Origin: Calothrix sp. PCC 7103
GTDB taxonomy: Bacteria; Cyanobacteriota; Cyanobacteriia; Cyanobacteriales; Nostocaceae
DNA length: 64,000 nt
Assembly (NCBI RefSeq): GCF_000331305.1
Contig: NZ_KB217478.1
Span: 552,904 to 616,903, forward strand
Direction of reading: 5' to 3'
Each line of letters starts with the position of its first letter. Positions within the stretch are counted from its first letter, which is position 1. The notes under the pieces were generated by a model. The model searched no databases, had not been told where the DNA came from, and was given only the letters and a program-made list of their open reading frames with translations. Both the position numbers and the translations under genes were made by a program. Below are positions 2,505-40,804 of this stretch, in pieces.

Positions 2505-3548
2505 TTACGCTTGATATACCCGAGGTGCCTGAACCATATCGCCATTCTTAAAATCAAATCCAGCATCACCTAAGCGCGCGCGGATAGCGTGCCAGATATG
2601 ACCGCACAAAAATAAAGCTGCAAAAACGAAGTGGAAAGTCGCTAACCATCCACGAGATGACATACTTGTAGCGGTTTCAATCATCCCAACTGGCCCATAG
2701 AATACTTCTGGATACACTGTGCTGTTAACTGTTACAAAGTACCCTGCTAAGAAGCCCATATAGCTCAAAGCTGCCAAACTGTAAGATAAATATGCTTCTC
2801 CAGACCAGACCAATATATTTTTTGTCCAGGGGAAAGGACTACTATTGATATGCCAGATACCACCAGAAATACACATTATACCAACCCAGATATGACCACC
2901 AACTACGTCTTCTAAATTATTCACTGCTGCCATTCCTGCGGCATCGTGAGTTGGAAATAAGTAGCTAAATATTCTGATTGGGTTGAGCGTTGGATGAGAA
3001 ATAACCCTTACATCTCCAGATGGTGTAACCCAAGGGTCAAATAATCCACTCCAAAACATCGCTTTCGCAACTAGCAACCAGGCGCCGATACCTAACAGAA
3101 GCAAGTGAATACCAAGAATAGTAGTCATCTTGTGCTTATCTTTCCAGTCATAGCCAAAGAAACCAGAAAGAGTAGAGTTTTTGGGTAATACTTCTTGACC
3201 CATCAGCGAATGAAACAGTCCACCTGCTCCTAACACTGCGGAAGAAATTAAATGTATTACCCCAATCACAAAATATGGATAGGTATCTACTATCGCACCA
3301 CCTACCCCAACTCCTATACCAAGGGTTGCTAAATGTGGCAGTAATATTAACCCCTGTTCATACATCGGTTGATTTGGGTTCAAGTGCGACAGTTCAAACA
3401 AAGTCATTGCACCTGCCCACAAAACTATTAAACCAGCATGAGCTACATGGGCGCCGAGTAGTTTTCCAGATAAATTAACCAAGCGCGTGTTACCAGACCA
3501 CCATCTCACATCTGGAACTGGTGTGCTGCTAATAGATGTCGTCGTCAT
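2505..3548 (-). CDS. IsiA/Pcb-family chlorophyll-binding antenna (CP43-like), copy 2
   Basis: A 347-residue six-helix membrane protein of the CP43/IsiA/Pcb family. Chlorophyll-ligand His residues are seen in the first helix (GAHVAHAG), in LLPHLATLG, in [16 protein letters not shown], in GGHIWVG and in the last helix ([10 protein letters not shown]). The stretch [13 protein letters not shown] with [10 protein letters not shown] resembles Pcb-type members more than the classical Synechocystis IsiA. The ATG at 3548 is preferred over the in-frame GTG at 3554 because CGAGGTGG precedes it at good spacing. These proteins form antenna rings around photosystem I, usually in iron stress. It overlaps nothing and is followed 17 bp later by flavodoxin. 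Confidence 0.9.
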
Positions 3549-3580
3549 AGCCACCTCGTACTATTTATTTGTAAATTCTC

Positions 3581-4716: not shown

Positions 4717-4782
4717 TAGGGTACGTGAGGCATTTAACAATCTTTCAGCGAAGTGAATAATTGTGTTGCGTCACGCACCTTA
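4717..4782. repeat. Inverted repeat, GGTGCGTGA family, copy 2
   Basis: TAGGGTACGTGAGGC at the left pairs with GCGTCACGCACCTTA at the right. The right end supplies the TAA stop codon (4780-4782) of the antenna gene 4780-5718. It may have truncated that gene, which is about 35 residues shorter than its paralogue. Confidence 0.65.
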
Positions 4783-5718
4783 CGCTTTAGTACGATGCCA
4801 AATGAAACCTAAGAATGCCAAAACACCCAAGAAGAATTGAGAGTTTGCAAGCGCTAAACGGTCTGAACCGTAAAATTCGATGGGAAAAGCTATAGTATTG
4901 TAGCCCACAAATACTGTAGAGATAAAAGCCATCAATGCTAAACCAAGTAAACTGTAGGAAAGTATTTCATCTCCACTTTCAATTGGCATGATTTTTCTAA
5001 CTGCTGCAAAAGGTTTAACTAGAATATGGCACACTCCACCCGCTATTAAAATACAGCCAATCCAGATGTGACCACCGATGATATCTTCTAAGTTATCAAC
5101 GCTTGCCATTCCTAACAGAGTTCGACTACCGTTTTTAATTCCCACTAAGTAGCCAAATATTACTTGTGGGTCAAGCGTTGGACTGTTGACGATACGAACG
5201 TTCTCAAGTGCTGCGTCATAGATTCCACCAAAGTACATTGCCTTAAGCACTAAAAGAAATGCTCCTAATCCTAGAATAATTAGGTGATATCCTAAAATTA
5301 ATCCCAGTTGTTTTGAGTCATTCCATTCATAATGGAATTTTGCAGTCTGCCCACCAGCAGTGTATAAAATTGGTGGACTACGGAAGACATGAAACAAACC
5401 TCCGGCGCCTAAAACAGCAGATGCAACTAAATGCAACATCCCAATGACAAAGTATGGGTATGTATTAACAATTTCACCTCCCGTGCCTACACCCCAACCC
5501 AAAGTAGCCAAATGGGGTAATAATATCATCCCTTGTTCATACAATGGCACACCTGGTGTATATCTCAAAGTTTCTATTACTGTGGTTGTTCCTGCCCAGA
5601 ACATTATTAACCCTGCATGTGCAACATGGGCGCCAATAAATAAACTTGACATGTTGGCGAAACGCGCGTTTCCAGCCCACCAATCATACTTGACATTCGG
5701 ATTGTCGTATGTTTGCAT
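4780..5718 (-). CDS. IsiA/Pcb-family chlorophyll-binding antenna, copy 1 (short C-terminus)
   Basis: A 312-residue member of the CP43/IsiA/Pcb family. It has the typical N-terminus (MQTY...[14 protein letters not shown]), the His-bearing helices [33 protein letters not shown] and GGHIWIG, and it reaches the last helix at GFIWHRTKA, where it stops. The paralogue at 2505-3548 continues for about 20-25 more residues after the equivalent His and also has a longer luminal loop before the last helix. The stop codon lies in a dispersed hairpin repeat. It is the first gene of the antenna/flavodoxin cluster and follows a 324-bp AT-rich promoter region. It probably functions as a light-harvesting or quenching antenna around photosystem I. 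Confidence 0.88.
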
Positions 5719-11390: not shown

Positions 11391-11584
11391 ATCAAGTGAA
11401 AAAAATTAAATCACGCAAAACAAATCTAATTTTTATAATTTTATTAAATGCATAACTTCAAAATTGCCAGAAATAGATAAATACAGAATACTCAAGTTTA
11501 TACAAAATCTATGAACGGCGCCCAAAACATCCTCAAAAACTTAATATCTATTTCTGCTATTAGCATTCTAGTTCTTATGACAAC

Positions 11585-11836
11585 GCACTCGAAAAAATCA
11601 CTGCTGATGGTGTTGTCGGACTATCACATGCGTTTTTAACCGCAGGAGCTAACAGTGTCATTACCTGACTGTGGGATGTAGATGATGCAGCTAAAACATC
11701 ACTCATAATAAGCTTCTATGAAAACTATAGCAAAAGTCATCGTGGAGCAGGCGCCTTGCGTCAAGCAATGTTAAAAACGATAAAAAAATATCCTAACCCC
11801 AGAAATTGGGCAGCTTTTAGATTGATTGGCACATAA
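11585..11836 (+). pseudogene. C-terminal fragment of a CHAT-domain protein with an in-frame stop
   Basis: The frame reads ALEKITADGVVGLSHAFLTA-GANSVIT, then a TGA at 11666-11668, then LWDVDDAAKTSLIISFYENY and a family-typical end NPRNWAAFRLIGT. This is the closing part of a CHAT (caspase HetF-associated) peptidase; compare GLAVQSGASSTIASLWSVDD and WAGFTLIGNPW in the intact gene 12393-13787. The catalytic His and Cys region is missing, so it is a dead fragment, presumably left from duplication or loss of a neighbouring CHAT gene. Confidence 0.8.
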
Positions 11837-12392: not shown

Positions 12393-13787
12393 ATGAACAA
12401 GACTAAGCTAACTATATTATTAACTTTTGCAACACTCCTAACTATTGTTGGGCTACAGGCAAAGTTTTCTAAGGAACCTAGTAATGCTGTTCCACCCCCT
12501 TCTGTTGAGGCGCCACAAAAGACTAAACTACCTGTGTCACCTCTCAAACCAGAAGTTCTGCAAAAAATTCTTGATACGCAAAATGTCAACTCCGGTATTC
12601 AATATGTCGAAAAGTCATGGCAACAGCAATACCAAGACTACCTTCAAGCGAAGTTACCTTCTAATCAAATATTCGATGCTCAACAAATGAGTCGAATATT
12701 AGATAAACTTCATCAACAATCAGGTAAAAAAAGTGCTTTAATATACGCTATTCCTACGCCAAAACACTTAGAATTAATGTTGGTGGGACCTGGCATAACT
12801 CCCATTCATAAAAGAATTCCAGCAGGAAAGCGAGACGAGTTAATAAAAATTGTTAGTAAATTTCGCACAGCTATCGTCAATCCGAATTTACCACGCGATG
12901 AGTACTTAAGTTCTGGAAAGCAAATATATGAATTAGTTATAGCTCCTTTAGAAGGAACACTACAAAGGCAAAAAATCGATAATTTAATATTTTGTTTAGG
13001 TGGTGGTTTACGAACCGTTCCTTTAGCTGCGATTAATGATGGTAAAAGATTTTTAATCGAAAAATACAGTCTAGGCATTATCCCAGCTTTTAACTTACTC
13101 GATTTTAACAGAGCCAATATTGCCCAAACTCAAATTTTAGCAATGGGCGCCTCGCAATTTCAAACTCAAGAACCTTTACCCGCCGTACCCCTAGAATTAT
13201 CGAGTATAGTTAATAACGAGTGGAAAGGCAAATCTTTATTAAATCAAGCTTTTACACCAGCAAACTTAAAGCTACAACGTGCAATATATCCGTTTGGTAT
13301 TGTACATTTAGCTACTCATGCGGAATTATCACCCGATTCTGTAGAACATTCGTACATCCAATTTTGGGACAAAAAGGTTCGGTTAGATGAACTCAAAACC
13401 CTAAATTTAAATAAACCCCCTGTACAGCTATTAGTACTAAGTGCTTGTCGTACTGCTTTAGGAAACCCGCAAGCTGAATTAGGTTTTGCTGGGTTAGCAG
13501 TACAGTCAGGTGCGTCTTCGACAATAGCAAGTTTGTGGTCGGTTGATGATGCGGGTACTTTAGCTTTAATGTCTCAATTTTACCAACAACTAAAAGATAC
13601 CCCAATCAAATCAGAAGCACTGCGACAAACCCAAATTGCTATGATTAAACAGCAAGTTAGTTTAAAAAATAATCCAGCTATTCGTGGTAGCAGTAATTTG
13701 CCCACAAATATTCCTAACTTAAACAGTCGAGAATTATCACATCCTTATTATTGGGCAGGTTTTACCTTAATTGGTAATCCTTGGTAG
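12393..13787 (+). CDS. CHAT-domain protease
   Basis: A 464-residue protein: a hydrophobic N-terminal signal/anchor (residues 5-22), a proline-rich stretch, a helical middle, and a C-terminal CHAT peptidase domain. The catalytic dyad is visible as His309 in HLATHAE and Cys352 in LSACRTALG, followed by LGFAGLAVQSGASSTIASLW and the closing WAGFTLIGNPW. CHAT is a caspase-fold cysteine peptidase (established). It is probably membrane-anchored with the protease outside the cytoplasm, or lipid-free secreted. The stop codon TAG is the first triplet of a dispersed repeat. It lies 190 bp before the sigma/DUF1822/CHAT-CHASE2 cassette. Confidence 0.9.
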   Translation: MNKTKLTILLTFATLLTIVGLQAKFSKEPSNAVPPPSVEAPQKTKLPVSPLKPEVLQKILDTQNVNSGIQYVEKSWQQQYQDYLQAKLPSNQIFDAQQMSRILDKLHQQSGKKSALIYAIPTPKHLELMLVGPGITPIHKRIPAGKRDELIKIVSKFRTAIVNPNLPRDEYLSSGKQIYELVIAPLEGTLQRQKIDNLIFCLGGGLRTVPLAAINDGKRFLIEKYSLGIIPAFNLLDFNRANIAQTQILAMGASQFQTQEPLPAVPLELSSIVNNEWKGKSLLNQAFTPANLKLQRAIYPFGIVHLATHAELSPDSVEHSYIQFWDKKVRLDELKTLNLNKPPVQLLVLSACRTALGNPQAELGFAGLAVQSGASSTIASLWSVDDAGTLALMSQFYQQLKDTPIKSEALRQTQIAMIKQQVSLKNNPAIRGSSNLPTNIPNLNSRELSHPYYWAGFTLIGNPW

Positions 13788-13847
13788 GTGCGTGACGCTA
13801 ACAATAATTTTGAAACGAAGCTATAATCTAATAGCGTCACACACCTA
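13785..13847. repeat. Inverted repeat, GGTGCGTGA family, copy 3
   Basis: TAGGTGCGTGACGCTA and TAGCGTCACACACCTA are near-perfect 16-base arms. The first three bases are the stop codon of the CHAT gene. Confidence 0.75.
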
Positions 13848-13885: not shown

Positions 13886-13948
13886 GGTGCGTGACGCTAC
13901 AAGTCTTATCACTACGTTCACATTTTTTCGTAGCGTCACGCACCCTAC
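13886..13948. repeat. Inverted repeat, GGTGCGTGA family, copy 4
   Basis: GGTGCGTGACGCTA and TAGCGTCACGCACC form perfect 14-base arms. It follows copy 3 by 38 bp and ends 27 bp before the sigma-like gene, so it lies in that gene's leader and could affect its expression. Confidence 0.75.
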
Positions 13949-13975: not shown

Positions 13976-15160
13976 ATGCGTGTACGTAAGAATATCATTG
14001 ATATCTTTTCTACATTTTTACTGTTTTCCGATGACAGAACTAGCGGTTGGGCAACTGATGCTAGACTACATCGCAGTATCAAAGCTTTTTTAGAGAATTC
14101 CGATAAATATAAAGAAGAATTTTTAGCTGTATACTGGCACAAACAATCACAAACATCAAAAAATCCTCAACTTGCATTAGGACATATGTCCGCTTACTTG
14201 CAAGAAGCTTGTTACTGGGCTATATATAAATTGATGCCTCGATTGCAAGAGTCTCAAGAAAAAATGTCAGACTTTTTCCAAATTGCGATTGCTGGAGTTC
14301 CTAAAATTCTCCACACTTGTAACCCTGATGTTAGTGGCAGTCTCAAAGCATACGCTAGCACGACTTTTGCAAATATTATTCGTAATTATTTACGTCAAAA
14401 CCGAGAAGTTAATTTTTGTACTGATTGGGGTTTACTACTCAAAATCAGCCGCAAAATTTTGATAGAGTCATTACAAAATTCTGGTTATGATACCCCAACG
14501 ATTGAACGTTATGTATTAGCTTGGAGTTGCTATACCCATATTTACCTACCACAAAAATTCCCACAACTCAGACAACGAAAGGCACCTGACCCTGAAATAT
14601 GGCAACAAATCGCTGTATACTACAATCAAATGCGGCGCCAACTTCCTTCTAATAGTGCTGAATGTACTAAAGAAACTATAGAACGTTGGATAAGCGAATG
14701 CGGCACCCAAGTTCGTAAATATTTGTATCCTTCGGTAAAATCTCTCAACTCTCCCAAACCAGGATATGAAGAAGGAGAAATTCAAGATGACCTCGTAGAT
14801 ACGTCTTCCTCTTTACTCACAGAACTTATTGAACAAGAAGAACAAACGACACGTCTTGACCAAAAAAATCAAATCAATACTCTTTTACAAGAAGCTGTTA
14901 CAAAACTTGACGAATCTGCTCAACAACTACTCCAGCTATACTACCAACAAAATCTCACTCAACAACAAATAGCAAAACAACTAGCAGTACAACAGTACAC
15001 TGTATCACGTAAATTATCCAAAACCCGTGAGTCTTTACTACTAACTCTAACTCGTTGGAGTCAAGAGACGTTGCATATTACCGTAACCTCAGACGTGGTT
15101 AAATATATCAACGCAACCCTTGAAGAATGGTTACAGACATACTACACACAGAAATTATGA
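13976..15160 (+). CDS. Sigma-70-like factor linked to DUF1822 and CHAT-CHASE2
   Basis: A 394-residue protein with a C-terminal region-4-like helix-turn-helix (about residues 300-345: QQLLQLYYQQNLTQQQIAKQLAVQQYTV then SRKLSKTRESLL), as in sigma-70 family factors. A middle segment, LKAYASTTFANIIRNYLRQN, resembles sigma region 2/3 helices. The N-terminal 100 residues are not typical of ECF sigmas. A paralogue lies at 39626-40804 and shares the N-terminus (IIDxFSTF), the HTH and the tail (HITVTSDVVKYINATLEEWLQ). Its stop overlaps the start of the DUF1822 gene as ATGA (15157-15160), indicating translational coupling. It is probably an alternative sigma factor of a dedicated signalling cassette. 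Confidence 0.85.
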   Translation: MRVRKNIIDIFSTFLLFSDDRTSGWATDARLHRSIKAFLENSDKYKEEFLAVYWHKQSQTSKNPQLALGHMSAYLQEACYWAIYKLMPRLQESQEKMSDFFQIAIAGVPKILHTCNPDVSGSLKAYASTTFANIIRNYLRQNREVNFCTDWGLLLKISRKILIESLQNSGYDTPTIERYVLAWSCYTHIYLPQKFPQLRQRKAPDPEIWQQIAVYYNQMRRQLPSNSAECTKETIERWISECGTQVRKYLYPSVKSLNSPKPGYEEGEIQDDLVDTSSSLLTELIEQEEQTTRLDQKNQINTLLQEAVTKLDESAQQLLQLYYQQNLTQQQIAKQLAVQQYTVSRKLSKTRESLLLTLTRWSQETLHITVTSDVVKYINATLEEWLQTYYTQKL

Positions 15161-16272
15161 CTATCCTATTCGATAACCCCAACCAAATAGAATTAGAAAT
15201 TTCCCCAGACTTAGTAGAACAATTATGGCGCCATAAAGGTGCTTCTTGGAATATATTTCTCAACCAAGTTTGTTTACAGACCTTTTTACCAACTTTAGAA
15301 GAGGATGTAACATTAGACGAGATATCAGTTCCTAGCTTTTGGACACATGTTAACGGTGCCGCCTTTACTTGGAGAAATAAACGTATAATCTTAATACCAG
15401 AAATATCTATAGATACAACAGAATGCACAATACCCCAAGAATGGGTAGATATTCCTAAATTAGCAGGAGATTACTATTTAGCGGTTCAAATTAATCCAGA
15501 TGAACTATCGCTGCGAGTTTGGGGATATACCACGCACAAAGATATCAAGTTATCAGCGACTTACAATTTTGATAGAACATACAGTCTAGATGCTCAATAT
15601 TTTATTCCCGATTTAAACGTGTTATGGGTAGTTAGTCAATTAAACCCAAATGAACCTACTCGTATGACGGTTCCTGCTTTATCTTCGGTACCCGCAACCC
15701 AAGCAGAGAATTTACTATCAAGATTAGGAAATTCCAATATTATTCAACCTCGATTAGAAATACCTTTTTCGTTATGGGCAGGGTTAATAACAAATAATAA
15801 CTGGCGCCAACGTTTATATCAACTGCGTCAAGGAATATCGAATAAAACGAACCTTGGTTTGTGGTTACAAAATACTGTTGCTGATGCTTGGCAATCGTTG
15901 GATACTATATTATCACCTAATTTGGGCGCCAGTTTTGGTTTGAGAACAACGGAAAACGACACATCTATCAAAAGGGTGAAATCTTTAAATTTGCCAGGTG
16001 GTGAAGCTTTTTTGGTCTTGGGTTTGGAAACTGAGCCAGATGGTAGAATTGGTATTCGTATTCAATTGCGTTCTAGTAGTCAAGATGAGTTTTTAGCATC
16101 TGGGACTAGTTTGAAGTTGGTTTCTGCTTCGGGTGATGTTATTCAGTCGGTTCAATCACGTAATCTAGATAATATTATTCAGTTGAAGCGGTTTAAGAGT
16201 CCTGTGGGTGTTGAGTTTAGTGTTCAAGTTGAGGTTGGGGAGTTTGTGGTGATGGAAGATTTTGTGTTGTAA
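15157..16272 (+). CDS. DUF1822 family protein
   Basis: A 371-residue protein. The mark of the family is PQEWVDIPKLAGDYYLAVQINPDELSLRVWGY (about residues 95-126), followed by a central region with ENLLSRLGNSNIIQPRLEIPF and WRQRLYQLRQGI. The start at 15157 is chosen because its ATG overlaps the sigma stop codon; an upstream in-frame ATG at 15127 lies deep in the sigma gene. No membrane segment or catalytic motif is seen. Its constant partnership with the sigma-like factor suggests that it binds that factor, perhaps as an anti-sigma or adaptor (inference). Its paralogue is at 38506-39639. Confidence 0.88.
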   Translation: MTILFDNPNQIELEISPDLVEQLWRHKGASWNIFLNQVCLQTFLPTLEEDVTLDEISVPSFWTHVNGAAFTWRNKRIILIPEISIDTTECTIPQEWVDIPKLAGDYYLAVQINPDELSLRVWGYTTHKDIKLSATYNFDRTYSLDAQYFIPDLNVLWVVSQLNPNEPTRMTVPALSSVPATQAENLLSRLGNSNIIQPRLEIPFSLWAGLITNNNWRQRLYQLRQGISNKTNLGLWLQNTVADAWQSLDTILSPNLGASFGLRTTENDTSIKRVKSLNLPGGEAFLVLGLETEPDGRIGIRIQLRSSSQDEFLASGTSLKLVSASGDVIQSVQSRNLDNIIQLKRFKSPVGVEFSVQVEVGEFVVMEDFVL

Positions 16273-16290
16273 TTTCAAATGTTTTTTATT

Positions 16291-16326
16291 TTACCACAGA
16301 GGCACAGAGGGCACAGAGAAAGAAGA
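16291..16326. repeat. ACCACAGAGGCACAGAG repeat, copy 1
   Basis: TTACCACAGAGGCACAGAGG and GCACAGAGAAAG form the leader of the CHAT-CHASE2 gene. Relatives occur at 25742-25777 and 29349-29415 (full hairpin), and a fragment lies at 179-197. The last purine-rich part (AGAAAGAAGAAG) serves as the ribosome-binding region of the next gene. Confidence 0.6.
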
Positions 16327-16328
16327 AG

Positions 16329-18686
16329 ATGTATCGACTTGTTGTTTTAAATTTAGGACAAGGTGATTTGTTACAAGGGTTTCCAACTGTGACTGTACAA
16401 TTTTGGGACTCGGAGAGAACTAGTATGCAGTTTACTGGGAGTTTACCTCCTATGCCAAATCTTGATACACTCTATCAACGTTGGCAATTATTGTACAAAT
16501 CGTTTTATGCGAACTTTCGCATTTCCCATGTCAATGCTAATAATCAAAATCAATGTCTGGATTTTGAGATTGATGAGGATGATGAAGATATTGGGCAGAT
16601 TTCTCACGCTGAGTTTCAAGAACTATGTCGAGATGTACAAGTTCAATTCAACCGCTGGTTATGTGCTGGTTCGTTTTTAAGTATCGAGCGCAAGTTACGA
16701 ACGCACTTAACACCTTTTGATGAAATTTGTTTCGTGATTGTGGCGCCTTCGGCAATTTTAACATTACCTTGGTGTTTATGGGATTTTTTATCTGATTATC
16801 CGCTCGCTGAAATTGCCCTTAGTCCTCCTGAATATGCACGTCCCTTTAAAACTAATACACCAAACGGCGCCAAAAAAAAGGTAAAAATTCTCAGTATTTT
16901 GGGTGATAGTACTGGTATTAATGTAACTCAAGACCAAAAGATACTCATAGAAAAACTTCCAGAAGCAGAAATTACCTTTTTAACAGAACCATCGTCGCAA
17001 GAACTAAACGAACAGCTTTGGCAGTTGGAATGGGATATTTTATTTTTTGCTGGACATAGTTCGAGTCAAGCAAAAGGTAACACAGGATGTATTCAAATTA
17101 ACTCGACGGAAACTCTCACAGTTGAGCAATTGAAGTATGGTTTGAGAAAAGCTATATCCAACGGTTTAAAATTAGCTATCTTTAACTCTTGTGATGGTTT
17201 GGGGTTAGCTGTTGATTTGGCAGATTTACATCTACCCCAAGTCATTGTAATGCGGGAACCTGTGCCAGATAAAGTTGCCCAGGAATTTTTGAAGCATTTT
17301 CTCACTACTTTCAAACAAGGAAAGTCTCTTTATATTGCGGTTCGGGAAGCAAGGGAGAAGTTACAAGGGTTAGAAGCACAATTTCCATGTGCAACTTGGT
17401 TACCTGTAATTTGTCAAAATCCTGCGGAAGTACCTTTTACTTGGTTAGAATTATGTGGAAAACACCCATCCATTCAATTATTCCCATCACGTCGTGCGTT
17501 ACAGAAGATTTTGGCATCTAGTCTGGCAAGTACGCTATTAGTCACAGGAATCAGATTTTTTGGATTATTATCTGGTGTAGATTTGTGGGCATTTGATTTA
17601 TTAATGCGGTCACGAACTCCTGAACCGCCTGATGATAGAATATTAGTTGTTACAGTTACACCCGAAGATATTCAAGCACAACCGAAAGAGCCTCGTTATG
17701 GTTCTTTATCTGATAGTACACTAAATCGACTACTAACTTACTTAAATAAACATCAACCTACAATGATTGGTTTGGATATCTACCGAGATTATCCAAGCTT
17801 GAAACCAGAATTAGCATCCACCTTAAAAAATTCAAGCTTAATAGGTGTTTGTAAGCGTCCCGATATTAAAGATGACCCCACAGGTACTTTACCATCACCA
17901 GAAATTTCTGCTTCACAGTTAGGATTTAGCGATTTTTTTCAAGATAATGACGGTGCTATTAGGCGCCATTTATTGTTTATGACACCAAATACAACTTCTC
18001 GTTGTACGGCATCATATGCATTTAGTACAAAGCTTGCAATTCAATATTTATACGCTCGACATAGTATTAAAACAGAATTTACACCAAATGGCAACTTAAA
18101 ATTAGGCAAAAGTATATTTCCATCCATCAGTGCGCGTACAGGAGGATATCAAGGTATAAATTCGTCAGGAAGTCAGATATTATTAAACTATCGGGCAATG
18201 ACTGACCCAAATACGATAGCACAAAGAGTCACACTTAAAGATATTTTCAGCAATAAAGTAAATCCGCAAGCTATCAAAAATCGTGTCATCTTAATTGGTA
18301 TAGTAGACCGTAGTGCAGGCGATTATTGGTCAACTCCCTACGGTGCGAGTTCAAATAAAATACCCGGTGTACTAATTCATGCACATATGTTGAGTCAAAT
18401 ACTCAGCACCGTCTTAGATAACAGACCCCTACTATGGGTTTGGTCAATCTGGCAAGAAATTATTTGGATTGCCTGCTGGTCAACACTTGGTGGATTTATT
18501 GCTTGGAGATTTCGTAGAATATTATTTATGAGTATAGCTGTGTCTATTACAGTAATAATACTATTTACTACGTGTTTGATAATACTAAATTATAGCGGTT
18601 GGGTTCCTTTAGTGGCGCCGTTATTAAGTTTTATGATAACTAATGGCACCGTTGTTTTTATATTATTAAAGAATCGAGACATTTAA
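16329..18686 (+). CDS. CHAT-CHASE2 transmembrane sensor-protease
   Basis: A 785-residue protein. Residues 1-370 form a CHAT peptidase module with His243 in FFAGHSSS and Cys288 in FNSCDGLG; the effector domain is thus N-terminal and cytoplasmic. A membrane helix at about 393-412 leads to a CHASE2 extracytoplasmic sensor (about 415-690: DLLMRSRTPEPPDDRILVVT, MIGLDIYRDYP, KNRVILIGIVDRSAGDYWST, IPGVLIHAHMLSQIL), followed by three C-terminal helices. CHASE2 normally feeds kinases or cyclases; here the output is a caspase-like protease. It is the third gene of the cassette after the sigma factor and DUF1822. Proteolysis of a cassette partner on sensing is a reasonable hypothesis. Confidence 0.92.
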   Translation: MYRLVVLNLGQGDLLQGFPTVTVQFWDSERTSMQFTGSLPPMPNLDTLYQRWQLLYKSFYANFRISHVNANNQNQCLDFEIDEDDEDIGQISHAEFQELCRDVQVQFNRWLCAGSFLSIERKLRTHLTPFDEICFVIVAPSAILTLPWCLWDFLSDYPLAEIALSPPEYARPFKTNTPNGAKKKVKILSILGDSTGINVTQDQKILIEKLPEAEITFLTEPSSQELNEQLWQLEWDILFFAGHSSSQAKGNTGCIQINSTETLTVEQLKYGLRKAISNGLKLAIFNSCDGLGLAVDLADLHLPQVIVMREPVPDKVAQEFLKHFLTTFKQGKSLYIAVREAREKLQGLEAQFPCATWLPVICQNPAEVPFTWLELCGKHPSIQLFPSRRALQKILASSLASTLLVTGIRFFGLLSGVDLWAFDLLMRSRTPEPPDDRILVVTVTPEDIQAQPKEPRYGSLSDSTLNRLLTYLNKHQPTMIGLDIYRDYPSLKPELASTLKNSSLIGVCKRPDIKDDPTGTLPSPEISASQLGFSDFFQDNDGAIRRHLLFMTPNTTSRCTASYAFSTKLAIQYLYARHSIKTEFTPNGNLKLGKSIFPSISARTGGYQGINSSGSQILLNYRAMTDPNTIAQRVTLKDIFSNKVNPQAIKNRVILIGIVDRSAGDYWSTPYGASSNKIPGVLIHAHMLSQILSTVLDNRPLLWVWSIWQEIIWIACWSTLGGFIAWRFRRILFMSIAVSITVIILFTTCLIILNYSGWVPLVAPLLSFMITNGTVVFILLKNRDI

Positions 18687-18975: not shown

Positions 18976-20163
18976 ATGGGAAGAACGATAGAAATCAATC
19001 CGAAACGGGTAATGTGGTTACAAGTAGGCGCCTTGGCTGGAATGCAGGGGGCAATAACTTTGTGCTGGGTGGTTTATAATCTGTATATACCGCAGCTTTT
19101 GGTAAGAATTGGTTTTGAGAAGGATTTTGCGGTTGGACTATTGATTGTTGAGAATTTACTGGCTGTAGTATTAGAACCTTTGATGGGTGGTCTTTCGGAT
19201 AATGCCAAGCGCTGGTTTGTTAGTCGTTTTTATTTTGTTTCTGCTGGTGTAATTGTTTCATCCGCTTTATTTATTGTTATACCTGCTGTTATTGCGCTTT
19301 TACCTTTGTCTGAAGCTACTCGCTGGATTTTTTTGTTTGTCATTGTCGGTTGGTCATTCACGATGACTATTTTTCGTAGTCCTGCAACTGCTCTATTAGG
19401 TAAATATGCTTCAAAAAATGATTTACCGTTGGCAGGAAGTTTGTTGACTTTGGCTTCTGGTATTATTATTGCTTTTCGACCTATTAGTACTAATTTTATT
19501 CTTAGTTTAGGCGCCGTTTTTAGTTTTGCGACTGGTTCTTTTGTTTTACTTGGTGCTGCTTTATTATTACGATATGTTAATCCACCTGAAGAACCTGTTG
19601 CTGAATCTGTACAAAGTAGAATATCAGAACCATCATTAGTACTATTTTTACTTTTGGGAACTGGTTTTGGAGTTGCTTGGGGTTCACGGTTATTAATGGA
19701 TGTTTTAGGAAAACTGCTTAAAATTGAGTTAGGCATAAATAATGTTGATGGAATGATGTTTATTATTGCTCTGGCACTCGCATTTGCATCTTTACCTGCT
19801 GGTGCGTTTGCAAGTAAAATTGGTAATCATCAAGCAATAATTTGGGGGAGTCGTATTATTTCAACATTAATGTTACTGATGCTGTTTTTCGGCGCCAATT
19901 TTGTTTTACTGTTACTAACTGTTGGTACATTTAGTCTAATTATTAATGGTGCGGTTCCTTTGGCACTATCGCTCTTTACACCGCAACGAGCAGGTTTAGC
20001 TGTAGGAACATATTTTGCTGGTGCTGCTTTAGGAGGAAGCTTGTTGTCGGTTATATTTCCCCAGTTAGTTAATATTGCTGTTGTACCTGAAGCATTTATT
20101 GGTGCTGTAGCTTTTTTAGTAGTAAGCACCTGTGTTAAAGCAACTCGTCCATTTTCTGCATAA
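18976..20163 (+). CDS. MFS transporter
   Basis: A 395-residue hydrophobic protein with 11-12 predicted helices. The signature LMGGLSDNAKRW after helix 2 corresponds to the conserved MFS loop G-x-L-S-D. The family resembles SLC45-like or generic major facilitator permeases; no substrate can be named. An ATG with AGGATGTAAAG upstream starts it. It lies between the CHAT-CHASE2 gene (289 bp away, with no gene in the gap) and the DUF928 gene, and need not be functionally linked to them. Confidence 0.85.
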   Translation: MGRTIEINPKRVMWLQVGALAGMQGAITLCWVVYNLYIPQLLVRIGFEKDFAVGLLIVENLLAVVLEPLMGGLSDNAKRWFVSRFYFVSAGVIVSSALFIVIPAVIALLPLSEATRWIFLFVIVGWSFTMTIFRSPATALLGKYASKNDLPLAGSLLTLASGIIIAFRPISTNFILSLGAVFSFATGSFVLLGAALLLRYVNPPEEPVAESVQSRISEPSLVLFLLLGTGFGVAWGSRLLMDVLGKLLKIELGINNVDGMMFIIALALAFASLPAGAFASKIGNHQAIIWGSRIISTLMLLMLFFGANFVLLLLTVGTFSLIINGAVPLALSLFTPQRAGLAVGTYFAGAALGGSLLSVIFPQLVNIAVVPEAFIGAVAFLVVSTCVKATRPFSA

Positions 20164-20211: not shown

Positions 20212-20997
20212 ATGACTACATTGAAATTTTACACCCAAACAGTAAAAATTCTTTTACTTACAGCAATATCTACAAGTTGCGGAAACCTTCTTAACGCTGA
20301 GTCAAAAGAACCACTAAATACTAAAAACCCCAATTTAATATTAGCATCAATAAAGTACGAACCACCCCCACCACCAACAACTAGCGGTGAACCGACAGGA
20401 AGGGGAGGACAAGGAGGCGCCGGCAGAGGTTGTCAACCAACAGCGTTGGTACCTAGCATGTTGGGTAAGAATGGCAATTATTTATGGGGACAAACAGTTT
20501 CTTCTAGACCTCAATTTTGGTTTGCATTACCTAGAAATTTAACGAAAAAAGATACTGTAGATTTTGTCTTAAAAGATAGGCAGGGTAAAGAAATTTATAA
20601 AACTACGTTAAAGTCTGAAGCTCCACAGGGAATAGTAAGTGTTAGCCTTCCTAAAACAGTATCACCTTTACAAACTAATAAAATGTATGATTGGTCATTC
20701 TCAATTTATTGTGATGCTGAAGCTTTTGAAGACAAACCAGGCAGTGTGGGGGGTAGTATTCAAAGGGTAAGTATATCAACAAAACTTAAAAATCAGCTTG
20801 CAGGCGCCAAAACTCCTATTGAACAAGCAGGTATATACGCTCAAAACGGTATATGGTTCGATGCGTTGACTAGTATAGCAGTAAATATGCGCGCCACGAA
20901 GTCAAAGGATGCCTCGTTGGCTTGGAATGAGTTGCTAACGCAGGTAAAGTTAGAAAAAATTGCCAAGCTTCCTGTGACGAACTGTTGTACAAAGTAG
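20212..20997 (+). CDS. DUF928 family exported protein
   Basis: A 261-residue protein with an N-terminal hydrophobic signal containing Cys (LLTAISTSCGN), possibly a lipobox. A proline/glycine linker (PPPPPTTSGEPTGRGGQGGAGRG, residues about 55-77) is followed by the DUF928 body (LVPSMLGKNGNYLWGQTVSSRPQFWFALP and YDWSFSIYCDAEAF). The function is unknown. DUF928 proteins are often found in cyanobacterial genomes near CHAT proteins (recollection), which fits this neighbourhood. A perfect palindrome overlaps its stop codon. Confidence 0.85.
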   Translation: MTTLKFYTQTVKILLLTAISTSCGNLLNAESKEPLNTKNPNLILASIKYEPPPPPTTSGEPTGRGGQGGAGRGCQPTALVPSMLGKNGNYLWGQTVSSRPQFWFALPRNLTKKDTVDFVLKDRQGKEIYKTTLKSEAPQGIVSVSLPKTVSPLQTNKMYDWSFSIYCDAEAFEDKPGSVGGSIQRVSISTKLKNQLAGAKTPIEQAGIYAQNGIWFDALTSIAVNMRATKSKDASLAWNELLTQVKLEKIAKLPVTNCCTK

Positions 20998-38151: not shown

Positions 38152-38517
38152 ATGGCAGACGTAAATGGCACTTGGTTAGGTACCTACTGGCAACAAGGGA
38201 CACCAACCCGCTTTGAAATAGCACTTATTCAAAGTGGTAATACTTTAAGCGGTAATGTTTTAGATGACAGCTATTTGGGGGAAGCACGTCTTCAAGGTAA
38301 AGTAGTTGGACGAAGTATCAGTTTTATCAAACGTTACATTACTACTTCTTCCGCAGCAATCACATATACTGGCACAATTTCAGAAGATGAGAATTATATG
38401 CATGGAGAGTGGAATATAGGAAAGTGGGACTTCGGCGCCTGGGAAGCTCGACGCAATAGCGATAATTTAGTGATAAACTTACAAAAAAGTCGAGTCGTTG
38501 AAACTTTAAAATCTTAA
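38152..38517 (+). CDS. Conserved small cyanobacterial protein
   Basis: A 121-residue soluble protein: VNGTWLGTYWQQGTPTRFEI at the N-terminus, then SGNTLSGNVLDDSYLGEARLQG and HGEWNIGKWDFGAWEARR. Alternating beta-strand character suggests a small barrel, lipocalin-like (inference). The function is unknown. Its 3' end overlaps the 3' end of the DUF1822 gene on the other strand by 12 bp. Confidence 0.7.
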   Translation: MADVNGTWLGTYWQQGTPTRFEIALIQSGNTLSGNVLDDSYLGEARLQGKVVGRSISFIKRYITTSSAAITYTGTISEDENYMHGEWNIGKWDFGAWEARRNSDNLVINLQKSRVVETLKS

Positions 38518-39639
38518 AATCTCTTGATCATAATTTTCTGGAACTGGTTCTATTTCCCAAACTATTCCTTCCCCCGGTTCTAAAGATATTTCTACGAACA
38601 AGTGTTCTGTAGCTGTCGTGGCAATATCTTCGTTATCAGGAAATGCTTGTAAATCTTCGGTTAAAAGTCTCAGCTTAAAACCTCCAGGAATAATACCCAC
38701 TCCGGCATTTTGCAGTTCAAATCGCCATGTTGTATATTCTTCATTAACTTGAGGAATTATCCGCAGTTCATATATTTGTCCTGCTATTGTTAATTGTCGT
38801 GCCAAAATACTCGTTGGCGCCATTTGCTCAATACTTCGTGCGGCGCCAACATGCTGTAAATTAAGATTGCTCCAACCTAACTGTTGTGCAGTTTGCGTCA
38901 CACCGTTTCGTAGCCATTCAATTATAGATTGTTCAGGTTGCCCAATTCTATGCTGATATAAACTTCGGCGCCAACCCCCATTTTCAATTAAGGCGCCCCA
39001 TGTTTGAAAAGGAATTTCAAGACGAGGTAATATAATATCAGGATTCCCAAGACGTGCAATTAAATTTTGAGCAACCGTAGTAGATAGAGATGGTAGAGAC
39101 GACACTTCTGCACGAGTTGGTTCAACAAATTCTGAAGATATGGCAAAAGTTAATATATTTATGTCATTAATATCACTAATATCAACCCCATAAGTTCGAG
39201 TGTAAGAATTATATACACCTAACGTCTTAAGTTGTAAATGTGTACAGTATCCCCAAACACGAATACATCTATCTTCGGGTATAACTTGCACTCCTAAATA
39301 ATAATCTCCAACTAAACCGGGTATATCTACCCATTCTTGAGGAACTCGTAACTCGCTTAAATCAATAGTTTCTTGTGGAACTAAAACAATTTTCATCGAG
39401 TCTACATTAATAACGGTCCCATTAACCAGTTCCCAAAAACTGGGTGATGCAGTGGTATTATAAAATACCTTTGCCTGAGTAGCTAAATCTTGTTGTAACC
39501 AGGGCAAGATACTACTTAGGCAAAGTTCATTTATATACGCTTGATAACGTGCTATCGGGTTAGAATAAACTTGACTATCCCAAGCTTCGTCAAAAGCTTG
39601 CTGTGGTATTTCTAAAATTAAATCATTAATTACTAACAT
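38506..39639 (-). CDS. DUF1822 family protein, second copy
   Basis: A 377-residue paralogue of the protein at 15157-16272. It carries PQEWVDIPGLVGDYYLGVQVIPEDRCIRVWGY, QNLIARLGNPDIILPRLEIPF and WRRSLYQHRIGQ in the same order. The start is set at the ATG at 39639, matching the paralogue's N-terminus; this overlaps the sigma-like gene by 14 bp, so translation is probably coupled. In contrast to the first locus, no CHAT-CHASE2 gene follows. Confidence 0.88.
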   Translation of the reverse strand: MLVINDLILEIPQQAFDEAWDSQVYSNPIARYQAYINELCLSSILPWLQQDLATQAKVFYNTTASPSFWELVNGTVINVDSMKIVLVPQETIDLSELRVPQEWVDIPGLVGDYYLGVQVIPEDRCIRVWGYCTHLQLKTLGVYNSYTRTYGVDISDINDINILTFAISSEFVEPTRAEVSSLPSLSTTVAQNLIARLGNPDIILPRLEIPFQTWGALIENGGWRRSLYQHRIGQPEQSIIEWLRNGVTQTAQQLGWSNLNLQHVGAARSIEQMAPTSILARQLTIAGQIYELRIIPQVNEEYTTWRFELQNAGVGIIPGGFKLRLLTEDLQAFPDNEDIATTATEHLFVEISLEPGEGIVWEIEPVPENYDQEILRF

Positions 39640-40804
39640 AGGCGCCACTACTATAATAAACCTGTAACCATTGTTCAATAACCGAGTTCATACTCTTTAG
39701 TATGTCCGACGTAATAGTTATATGCAGTTTTTCTTTACTCCAAGTAAAAACAGCTTTAAGTAAACCTTCGCGTATTTTATTCAGGCGCCGCGATACCGTA
39801 TACTGTGGAATATCGAGCTTCTTAGCAATTTGGTGCTGCGTAAGTCCTTGAATATAATAAAGCTTTAAAATTTGTTGCGCTTCTAGTTCAAGCTTATTAA
39901 CTGCCTCAACTAATACTTGACCAATTTCAGAAAGCTGAGAATCACGAGCTTGCTGTTCTTCTTCGGCTATTATCTCTAATAATGGAGAATTTTCATTACT
40001 AGGTATATTATCGATAATTTCATAAGTATCTTCGCTTCCTGTGGGTGCGTTGATAGAAGTTACTGGTGGATACAAAAAATTACGTATCGATGTAGCACAG
40101 GTTTGCATCCAGCTTTCCAGAGTTTGGGCGCTGACTTTAGAAGGCGCCTGCATATTGTATGCTTTTGTAATAGCATCCCACGTTTTATCATCGGGACGTG
40201 CAAGCTTACGGCTAGTGTTGGTTTGGGATGGAACGTATATTAACTGATAACAGTTAAAAGCATTAGTATAGTTAGTTATCGTTTCTTTAGATAACCCTGC
40301 TGCTTCTAAAGACTCTATCAAACGTTTTTGGCTGGTTTTCCGCAACATTCCCCAAGTCGAACAAATATCGACTTCGTGACGTTGACGTAGTGTTTCGCGA
40401 ATAATCGAGCCAAAACTAGTACTAGCATAATTCTTAAGGATAAAACCCTGATTAGGATTAAACCCCTTAAGTATACGGTCAATTTGTGTAATCGCTATTT
40501 GGAAGAAGTCAGGTAAAGAATATTGAGTAGCACTAAAAGTTTGTGCTATCTTCTGCGAACTCCAATAACAAGGTTCTTGGAGATACGCACTCAAATGTTG
40601 CTGGGCAATACTTAACTGTTCTTTCTGCCAACGCTTATACCAATATATAGCCCAAACATTATCTAAAGTCTCTTCTGGATTTTTATTTATACAGCTTTGA
40701 ATACTCCGACGCAACCTACCATCTTTTACCCAATTTTGGAAACGTTCCGCATCGAATTGGATAAAAGTGGAAAATTTGTCAATAATGCTTTGCCGGGAAT
40801 GCAT
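39626..40804 (-). CDS. Sigma-70-like factor, second copy
   Basis: A 392-residue paralogue of 13976-15160. The C-terminal HTH reads AQQILKLYYIQGLTQHQIAKKLDIPQYTVSRRLNKIREGLL; the tail HITITSDILKSMNSVIEQWL and the inner LKNYASTSFGSIIRETLRQRHEVDICSTWGMLRKTSQK are well conserved between the two copies, and the N-terminus (SIIDKFSTFIQFDAERFQNW) is shared. It leads an overlapping two-gene operon with DUF1822. Confidence 0.85.
   Translation of the reverse strand: MHSRQSIIDKFSTFIQFDAERFQNWVKDGRLRRSIQSCINKNPEETLDNVWAIYWYKRWQKEQLSIAQQHLSAYLQEPCYWSSQKIAQTFSATQYSLPDFFQIAITQIDRILKGFNPNQGFILKNYASTSFGSIIRETLRQRHEVDICSTWGMLRKTSQKRLIESLEAAGLSKETITNYTNAFNCYQLIYVPSQTNTSRKLARPDDKTWDAITKAYNMQAPSKVSAQTLESWMQTCATSIRNFLYPPVTSINAPTGSEDTYEIIDNIPSNENSPLLEIIAEEEQQARDSQLSEIGQVLVEAVNKLELEAQQILKLYYIQGLTQHQIAKKLDIPQYTVSRRLNKIREGLLKAVFTWSKEKLHITITSDILKSMNSVIEQWLQVYYSSGAYVSN

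Follow-up and report, generated by a model that had tools for sequence, protein, structure and literature searches.

Which protein may be cut by a caspase-like membrane protease encoded next to a sigma factor gene, and with what consequence for transcription, is the question raised by a gene cassette of the cyanobacterium Calothrix sp. PCC 7103. The cassette lies in a 64,000-nucleotide (nt) stretch of the 11.6 Mb genome (contig NZ_KB217478.1; G000:C7:552904-616903), referred to here as the window, and has its closest named relatives in Calothrix and Dulcicalothrix (DUF1822 identity 94–96%). It encodes a sigma-70 family protein, a DUF1822 protein, and a membrane protein combining a CHAT protease domain with a CHASE2 sensor (CHAT-CHASE2). 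An earlier note on this DNA had suggested a sensor acting by proteolysis on a sigma system, which the conserved unit and intact catalytic dyad described below fit, and had left the cut partner open; the evidence points to DUF1822 as the predicted target. The three genes are:

13976–15160, plus strand: sigma-70 family protein, 394 amino acids (aa) (TIGR02937, 118.7 bits; cut-off 42.9)
15157–16272, plus strand: DUF1822 protein, proposed sigma inhibitor (anti-sigma factor) (PF08852, 265.7 bits)
16329–18686, plus strand: CHAT-CHASE2 membrane protein, 785 aa (PF12770 and PF05226, both above cut-off)

Pfam and NCBIfam scores upheld the three open reading frames (ORFs) and their domains as first described, and the reported overlap of the DUF1822 start codon with the sigma stop codon was found in a shared ATGA at 15157. 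The longest DUF1822 ORF begins at 15127, and DUF1822 relatives align from residue 11 onward.

The sigma, DUF1822, and CHAT-CHASE2 genes form a tight, widely conserved unit. Linkage was counted in 80 named loci, the best 80 of 478, which are biased toward sigma linkage through eight sigma-linked query genes, and in a phylum sample less tied to the queries (49 DUF1822 genes from 17 other genomes), for which four of 52 loci lacking a called DUF1822 gene (L156-L159) were dropped and one match (G058, E 8.3e-4) was left out; an alignment left out 14 of 84 rows, one for a stop codon and 13 without need. Among the named loci, 71 of the 80 DUF1822 genes had a sigma gene of the window type within 1.5 kb upstream on the same strand and 73 had a CHAT gene of this type within 5 kb, so that the conserved linkage on which the earlier note had staked its proposal beforehand was borne out; the CHAT-CHASE2 form accounted for 70 and a DUF928 gene was present in 37. 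The corresponding numbers for sigma, CHAT, CHAT-CHASE2, and DUF928 were 10, 26, 14, and 8 in the phylum sample and 9, 16, 9, and 9 for the 20 full DUF1822 genes of the window's own genome. Spacing between sigma and DUF1822 genes had a median of 5 nt over 92 pairs, including 31 that overlap and 71 at 20 nt or less.

An iterated profile identified a sigma factor as the upstream neighbor of DUF1822 in 102 of 143 cases versus 0 of 311 more distant control genes. Two further neighbor clusters matched sigma profiles as groups (39 members, E 9e-6; two members, E 2e-5) and raised the count to 132 of 143, a cluster comparison made for the neighbors and not for the control genes, which were checked by profile search; the other 11 neighbors were five CHAT proteins and six single genes. 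No sigma family occurred among the 25 listed of 101 control families, and the NCBIfam sigma superfamily model matched 21 of 44 DUF1822 upstream neighbors in the phylum sample. Within the Calothrix genome, a sigma or sigma-like gene lay directly upstream of 15 of the 20 full DUF1822 genes (nine by profile and six, including one weak match, by NCBIfam at E <= 0.01). With intervening ORFs allowed, 10 of the 80 named loci had the order solo CHAT, sigma, DUF1822, CHAT-CHASE2, and DUF928; these were records of Calothrix, Dulcicalothrix, Tolypothrix, Scytonema, Iningainema, Leptolyngbyaceae, Lyngbya, and Leptolyngbya. That these are neighboring genes without a joint function is hardly credible given the spacing, the conservation over many genera, and the repeated paralogous cassettes within one genome, even with 23 of the 49 DUF1822 genes of the phylum sample having no such CHAT within 5 kb. 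The order sigma, DUF1822, CHAT-CHASE2 was also seen on a contig filed as a Crocinitomicaceae metagenome-assembled genome (L064), which is probably a misplaced cyanobacterial contig.

Membership of the sigma-70 family was supported by the TIGR02937 score above the curated cut-off and by the presence of both region 2 (PF04542, residues 82–143, 24.1 bits and so barely above its cut-off of 24) and region 4 (PF04545, residues 310–354, 29.5 bits against 24.1). The strict extracytoplasmic function (ECF) definition of fewer than 50 residues between regions 2 and 4 (as cited in PMC11119718) does not describe the window protein, in which about 160 residues separate the end of region 2 (143) from the start of region 4 (303–310).

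The CHAT-CHASE2 protein is a putative clan CD (caspase-like) protease with an intact His-Cys dyad, and the two residues were located exactly where the earlier note had placed them:

16962–17378, plus strand: CHAT domain, inferred to be cytoplasmic (Pfam, residues 212–350, 49.8 bits)
17055–17057 and 17190–17192, plus strand: codons of the dyad residues H243 and C288 (codons checked)
17523–18668, plus strand: helix 399–417, CHASE2 402–722 (Pfam, 213 bits), and hydrophobic C-terminal stretch 727–780 (hydropathy)

The membrane helix of the original topology was recovered at 399–417, and the additional hydrophobic stretch at 727–780 had been overlooked. An alignment of the protease part with 91 relatives showed both dyad residues retained in 90 and a gap at that place in the remaining one. 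A profile of the protein had no PDB sequence match at E <= 1. Paralogues in the same genome carry a swapped sensor part (NACHT, nSTAND1, WD40, periplasmic-binding, and others), and those with NACHT, nSTAND1, or WD40 parts are compatible with a conflict or cell-death module, in which the caspase kills or arrests the cell upon invasion and the sigma factor and DUF1822 merely tune module expression; such proteins have been grouped with apoptosis-like conflict systems (PMC8195603), and the second CHAT protein of the window weakly matches BovA in PADLOC (29 bits). This explanation is improbable, since PADLOC at E 0.1 gave no match for DUF1822, CHAT-CHASE2, or DUF928, the CHASE2 part faces outward, and the sigma-DUF1822 core persists in a lineage, described below, in which no CHAT was found.

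Protease-like partners varied among related loci. In one cassette (L013), the gene after DUF1822 (L013:4979-8230) encodes a 1083-aa protein that combines trypsin-like and TPR parts and may represent another protease output; a CHAT gene lies beyond it. In L025, L114, and L115, the sigma-DUF1822 pair is followed by a TPR-CHAT-type protein (861–876 aa) instead of CHAT-CHASE2 (Pfam scan for L025 only). The whole Calothrix genome holds 80 CHAT, 29 CHASE2, 22 DUF1822, and 22 DUF928 matches.

The DUF1822 protein was modeled with AlphaFold2 (AF2) at a mean predicted local distance difference test score (pLDDT) of 81 and a predicted template modeling score of 0.60, giving in order an alpha+beta domain, helices, a linker, and a beta-sandwich (numbering of the ORF from 15127):

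15184–15642, plus strand: N-terminal alpha+beta domain, residues 20–172 of the model, proposed sigma-binding part
15919–15957, plus strand: poorly predicted linker, residues 265–277 (pLDDT < 50)
15943–15945, plus strand: codon of R273, candidate cleavage site in the linker (codon checked)
15967–16269, plus strand: C-terminal beta-sandwich (AF2 strands 281–380)

An assignment of DUF1822 as a TPR protein found no support in the model, and no Pfam TPR match was found. The beta-sandwich gave weak PDB fold matches only, to Ig-like or similar beta domains (best E 6.1e-3); the 50 PDB matches listed included no anti-sigma factor and none at E <= 0.001. At the R273 position, Arg occurred in 65 of 70 sequences, and in a wider set 134 Arg and 6 Lys made up 140 of 148. 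Metacaspases, separase, and similar caspase relatives commonly cut after Arg or Lys, which makes R273 a candidate cut site.

A DUF1822 domain in a very different setting suggested what its N-terminal part may do. Of 59 genomes in a phylum search, 38 carried DUF1822, and 20 of those belonged to a family designated f15, with genomes of 1.8–2.2 Mb and a single DUF1822 match each that spans just the N-terminal portion of the model. The f15 protein consists of a DUF1822 head, a long acidic stretch (23–36% Asp plus Glu), one predicted membrane helix, and a tail, and a sigma-like gene of 182–198 aa follows 12–106 nt downstream. This build with its sigma-like gene was present in 27 of 28 loci (from 8 of the 20 phylum-search genomes and then 20 more), the 28th being interrupted by a contig start; the neighbor count above, which took upstream genes only, gives f15 zero sigma factors. 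Profile comparison aligned f15 heads with residues 20–162 of the window DUF1822 family (E 4.6e-8). The iterated sigma and DUF1822 profiles were built from matches at the same loci, possibly including f15 loci, so that their E-values for f15 are inflated; independent support came from Pfam, the A2 profile, and the profile comparison. Neither a CHAT match nor a photosystem reaction-center match (PF00124) was found in any of 12 f15 genomes, and the latter indicates that f15 is probably a non-photosynthetic lineage, which may, at a guess, be the Gastranaerophilales. Transmembrane anti-sigma factors share the f15 layout, as do the FecR-type proteins among them, which are released by proteolysis, and by this analogy the DUF1822 head is likely the sigma-binding part.

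Taken with the cassette genes, their tight linkage, the intact catalytic residues, and the conserved basic linker residue, the common DUF1822 domain adjoining sigma-like genes in two very different settings suggests a membrane receptor-protease gating a sigma factor. The N-terminal alpha+beta domain of DUF1822 would bind the sigma factor and keep it inactive as an anti-sigma factor. CHASE2 would sense an extracytoplasmic signal, with help from DUF928 and, in certain lineages, from an exported CHAT protein, and the signal would activate the CHAT protease, the inner part of that polypeptide. CHAT would then cut DUF1822, most likely at the near-invariant linker Arg/Lys between helices and beta-sandwich, and the cut would free the sigma factor. 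In f15, the DUF1822 domain is fused to its own membrane segment and outer domain, and release would follow another route. Confidence differs among the parts of this proposal: judged from sequence and predicted structure, DUF1822 is very probably a partner of the sigma factor and rather probably its inhibitor, cleavage of DUF1822 by CHAT is plausible and held tentatively, and the full mechanism has slightly less than an even chance of being correct.

An unlikely alternative is that DUF1822 serves as an adaptor or co-activator of the sigma factor, with CHAT cleaving itself as an autopeptidase and the freed domain engaging both. Linkage, spacing, and co-variation suit any sigma-binding role, and autopeptidase activation has been proposed for such proteins (PMC8195603); however, this alternative leaves the basic linker residue of DUF1822 without explanation, and the f15 layout, usual for membrane anti-sigma factors, is in general unusual for co-activators.

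On the outer side of the membrane, the cassette is accompanied by DUF928, joined in some lineages by another CHAT protein that is probably exported. The earlier note had placed an intact solo CHAT gene and a DUF928 gene alongside; both were found, with an MFS gene separating CHAT-CHASE2 from DUF928:

12393–13787, plus strand: solo CHAT caspase-like protein, 464 aa, optional first cassette gene (PF12770, 222 bits)
18976–20163: MFS gene between the CHAT-CHASE2 and DUF928 genes
20212–20997, plus strand: DUF928 protein, probably exported, proposed partner of CHASE2 outside (PF06051, 164.7 bits)

The solo CHAT protein has H309 and C352 as its catalytic residues and an N-terminal hydrophobic segment (residues 5–26), a probable export signal or anchor. 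Both catalytic residues were kept in 19 of 20 solo CHAT proteins of 400–500 aa, Gly replacing Cys in L018, and a solo CHAT gene lay upstream on the same strand in 17 of 80 DUF1822 genes, the window being counted. A CHAT fragment with one internal TGA (11570–11830, plus strand) is a relic upstream of the intact gene. The MFS position holds a 395-aa ORF in L029 and L032, no ORF in L030, and a 107-aa ORF in L031, the four closest named relatives.

In this genome, 20 of 22 DUF928 genes had a CHASE2 gene no more than 5 kb away (random mean 0.6, maximum 4 in 2000 trials), as did 45 of 66 in 16 other genomes; conversely, 20 of 29 and 42 of 102 CHASE2 genes, respectively, had DUF928 nearby. DUF928 was modeled as a beta-sandwich plus four helices (pLDDT 80.8), and structure searches returned loose beta-sandwich matches only (eight at E <= 0.001; query TM-scores <= 0.29 among the rows listed). 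The hydrophobic N-termini of homologues suggest that DUF928 is probably exported, the window copy itself falling under the hydropathy threshold.

Co-variation was assessed in 39 cassettes by partial distance correlations because plain ones were high for all pairs (0.82–0.93) with no unlinked control gene. Values were 0.42 for sigma-DUF1822, 0.36 for DUF1822-CHAT, and 0.52 for CHASE2-DUF928. These numbers also bear on the quite improbable alternative that CHAT destroys the sigma factor itself and the signal turns the regulon off, in line with a review suggesting proteolytic control of ECF54 from nearby CHAT, subtilase, and carboxypeptidase genes (PMC8999054): the constant DUF1822 gene would be left without a role, and the sigma-CHAT value (0.24) was lower than that for DUF1822-CHAT, with subsample ranges that overlap.

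Several observations weigh against a receptor-protease that gates the sigma factor through DUF1822. That same overlap of the sigma-CHAT with the DUF1822-CHAT range is one, and another is the partial correlation of 0.49 between DUF1822 and DUF928, which are expected on opposite sides of the membrane and whose co-variation is left unexplained by the simple picture. No such CHAT lies near several sigma-DUF1822 pairs (L023, L026, L109-L113). R273 was present in 22 of 26 DUF1822 proteins with a local CHAT of this type versus 17 of 23 without (Fisher p 0.48), so that it was rejected as a marker of locally CHAT-linked DUF1822 and stands as a candidate site only, for which a structural reason is possible; the residue was missing from 6 plus 4 DUF1822 genes of the phylum sample. 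DUF1822 matched no PDB sequence and no NCBIfam family, and thus these searches gave no sign of homology to Csx30 or to known anti-sigma factors. For f15, a search of 117 genomes of that class gave 34 matches (30 short loci left out of the analysis), every one of them from this family, and a layout confined to one lineage represents one evolutionary event. Pfam recognized the DUF1822 domain in two of three f15 proteins scanned, a TonB-like tail was seen in one of three and below cut-off, and in four f15 sigma-like genes Pfam matched region 4 and not region 2. In seven f15 genomes with a placeable neighbor sigma factor, another sigma gene fitted the window-type profile better, and the f15 sigma factor was accordingly rejected as a special counterpart of that of the window.

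The wider reading of DUF1822 as an unrecognized anti-sigma family with two release modes, a receptor-protease cut at a basic linker residue in photosynthetic cyanobacteria and a protein that is itself the membrane receptor in f15, is more speculative than the mechanism proposed for the cassette and may well prove wrong. If true, DUF1822 would gain a function, and paralogous cassettes would provide many parallel protease-gated sigma channels per cell. It would also supply a direct example, from bacteria, of a caspase-like protease that doubles as a membrane receptor and acts on a transcription switch. Cyanobacterial relatives of caspases, often regarded as death proteases, would be linked to everyday gene regulation, and a single biochemical assay could be used to test the many paralogous sensors of complex cyanobacteria.

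Other features of the window include a second sigma-DUF1822 pair on the minus strand (38506–40804; sigma 39626–40804, DUF1822 ORF 38506–39678) with no such CHAT nearby. Two inverted pairs of GGTGCGTGACGC(T), at 13787–13845 and 13886–13944, lie in the gap that separates the solo CHAT gene from the sigma gene. Exact copies of the GGTGCGTGACGC 12-mer number 89 across the genome, many paired about 47 nt apart, and a cassette operator was rejected in favor of a dispersed small mobile-type repeat. IsrR antisense RNA matches on the plus strand (2960–3146, 129.5 bits; 5148–5325, 131.6 bits) each lie opposite a minus-strand ORF (2505–3554 and 4780–5718), presumably resembling IsiA/PsbC-type proteins.

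Comparison with published systems showed that the genes and their neighborhood are already known and that the triad has been published as a prediction. Caspase/CHASE2 proteins adjoining an ECF sigma factor and DUF1822 were described by Kaur et al. (2021; PMC8195603), who proposed stimulus-induced autopeptidase activation with a transcriptional output, labeled DUF1822 a TPR protein, and described variable sensor parts for the EACC2-caspase type. A Trichodesmium caspase-CHASE2 protein had also been listed (PMC2853523). Given these two papers and Craspase (PMC10028731), the statement of the earlier note that known CHASE2 proteins use kinase or cyclase outputs is not supported, and its statement that no mechanism was described is only partly right. 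The cassette resembles EACC2-caspase systems in having an N-terminal module followed by a caspase-type domain, a variable C-terminal part that may be CHASE2, and sigma and DUF1822 neighbors (PMC8195603). The N-terminal part of CHAT-CHASE2 fits EACC2 in position and size and is a putative EACC2. Unlike in that account, DUF1822 is here a proposed anti-sigma factor with a non-TPR model, and two partners are added: DUF928, which has 0 occurrences in PMC8195603, and a second CHAT. In the open-licence literature searched, DUF1822 is named in two papers and DUF928 in one. The two papers naming DUF1822, as far as their available text goes, never call it an anti-sigma factor, and within that literature four elements are new: DUF1822 read as an anti-sigma factor, the f15 form, the candidate cut site, and DUF928 as a partner.

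The f15 layout of a cytoplasmic sigma-binding head, one membrane helix, and an outer sensor, adjoining a sigma gene, is like that of RseA (PMC10028731). Unlike RseA and FecR types, the window has its sensor and protease on a separate polypeptide, and the DUF1822 head shows no detectable sequence similarity to known anti-sigma domains; DUF1822 is encoded beside a sigma factor and showed no known anti-sigma fold among the PDB matches listed. Direct kinship to Csx30, HetF, and Csx29 was rejected on model scores below cut-off and the lack of a PDB sequence match. The solo CHAT scored 20.2 bits against the 300 required for Csx29, for which CHAT-CHASE2 had no match at E 0.1, and CHAT-CHASE2 scored 31.6 bits against a cut-off of 1200 for HetF (NF045509). 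Matches of DUF1822-upstream sigma factors to the III-E sigma model were weak (10 of 44 at E <= 0.01, best 4.7e-8). In Craspase, the CHAT protease Csx29 cuts Csx30, an inhibitor of CASP-sigma, and as in the window a CHAT protease, a multi-domain cytoplasmic inhibitor, and a sigma factor are encoded together, with activation by RNA via Cas7-11 instead of an outer-side sensor (PMC10028731). In Anabaena, HetF, a cyanobacterial membrane CHAT protease bearing TPR (figure legend) where the window protein has CHASE2, can cleave PatU3, which limits the transcriptional regulator HetZ (PMC12288457, PMC8406250). Csx29-Csx30 and HetF-PatU3 are worked precedents for the same logic as that proposed for a CHAT protease cutting DUF1822.

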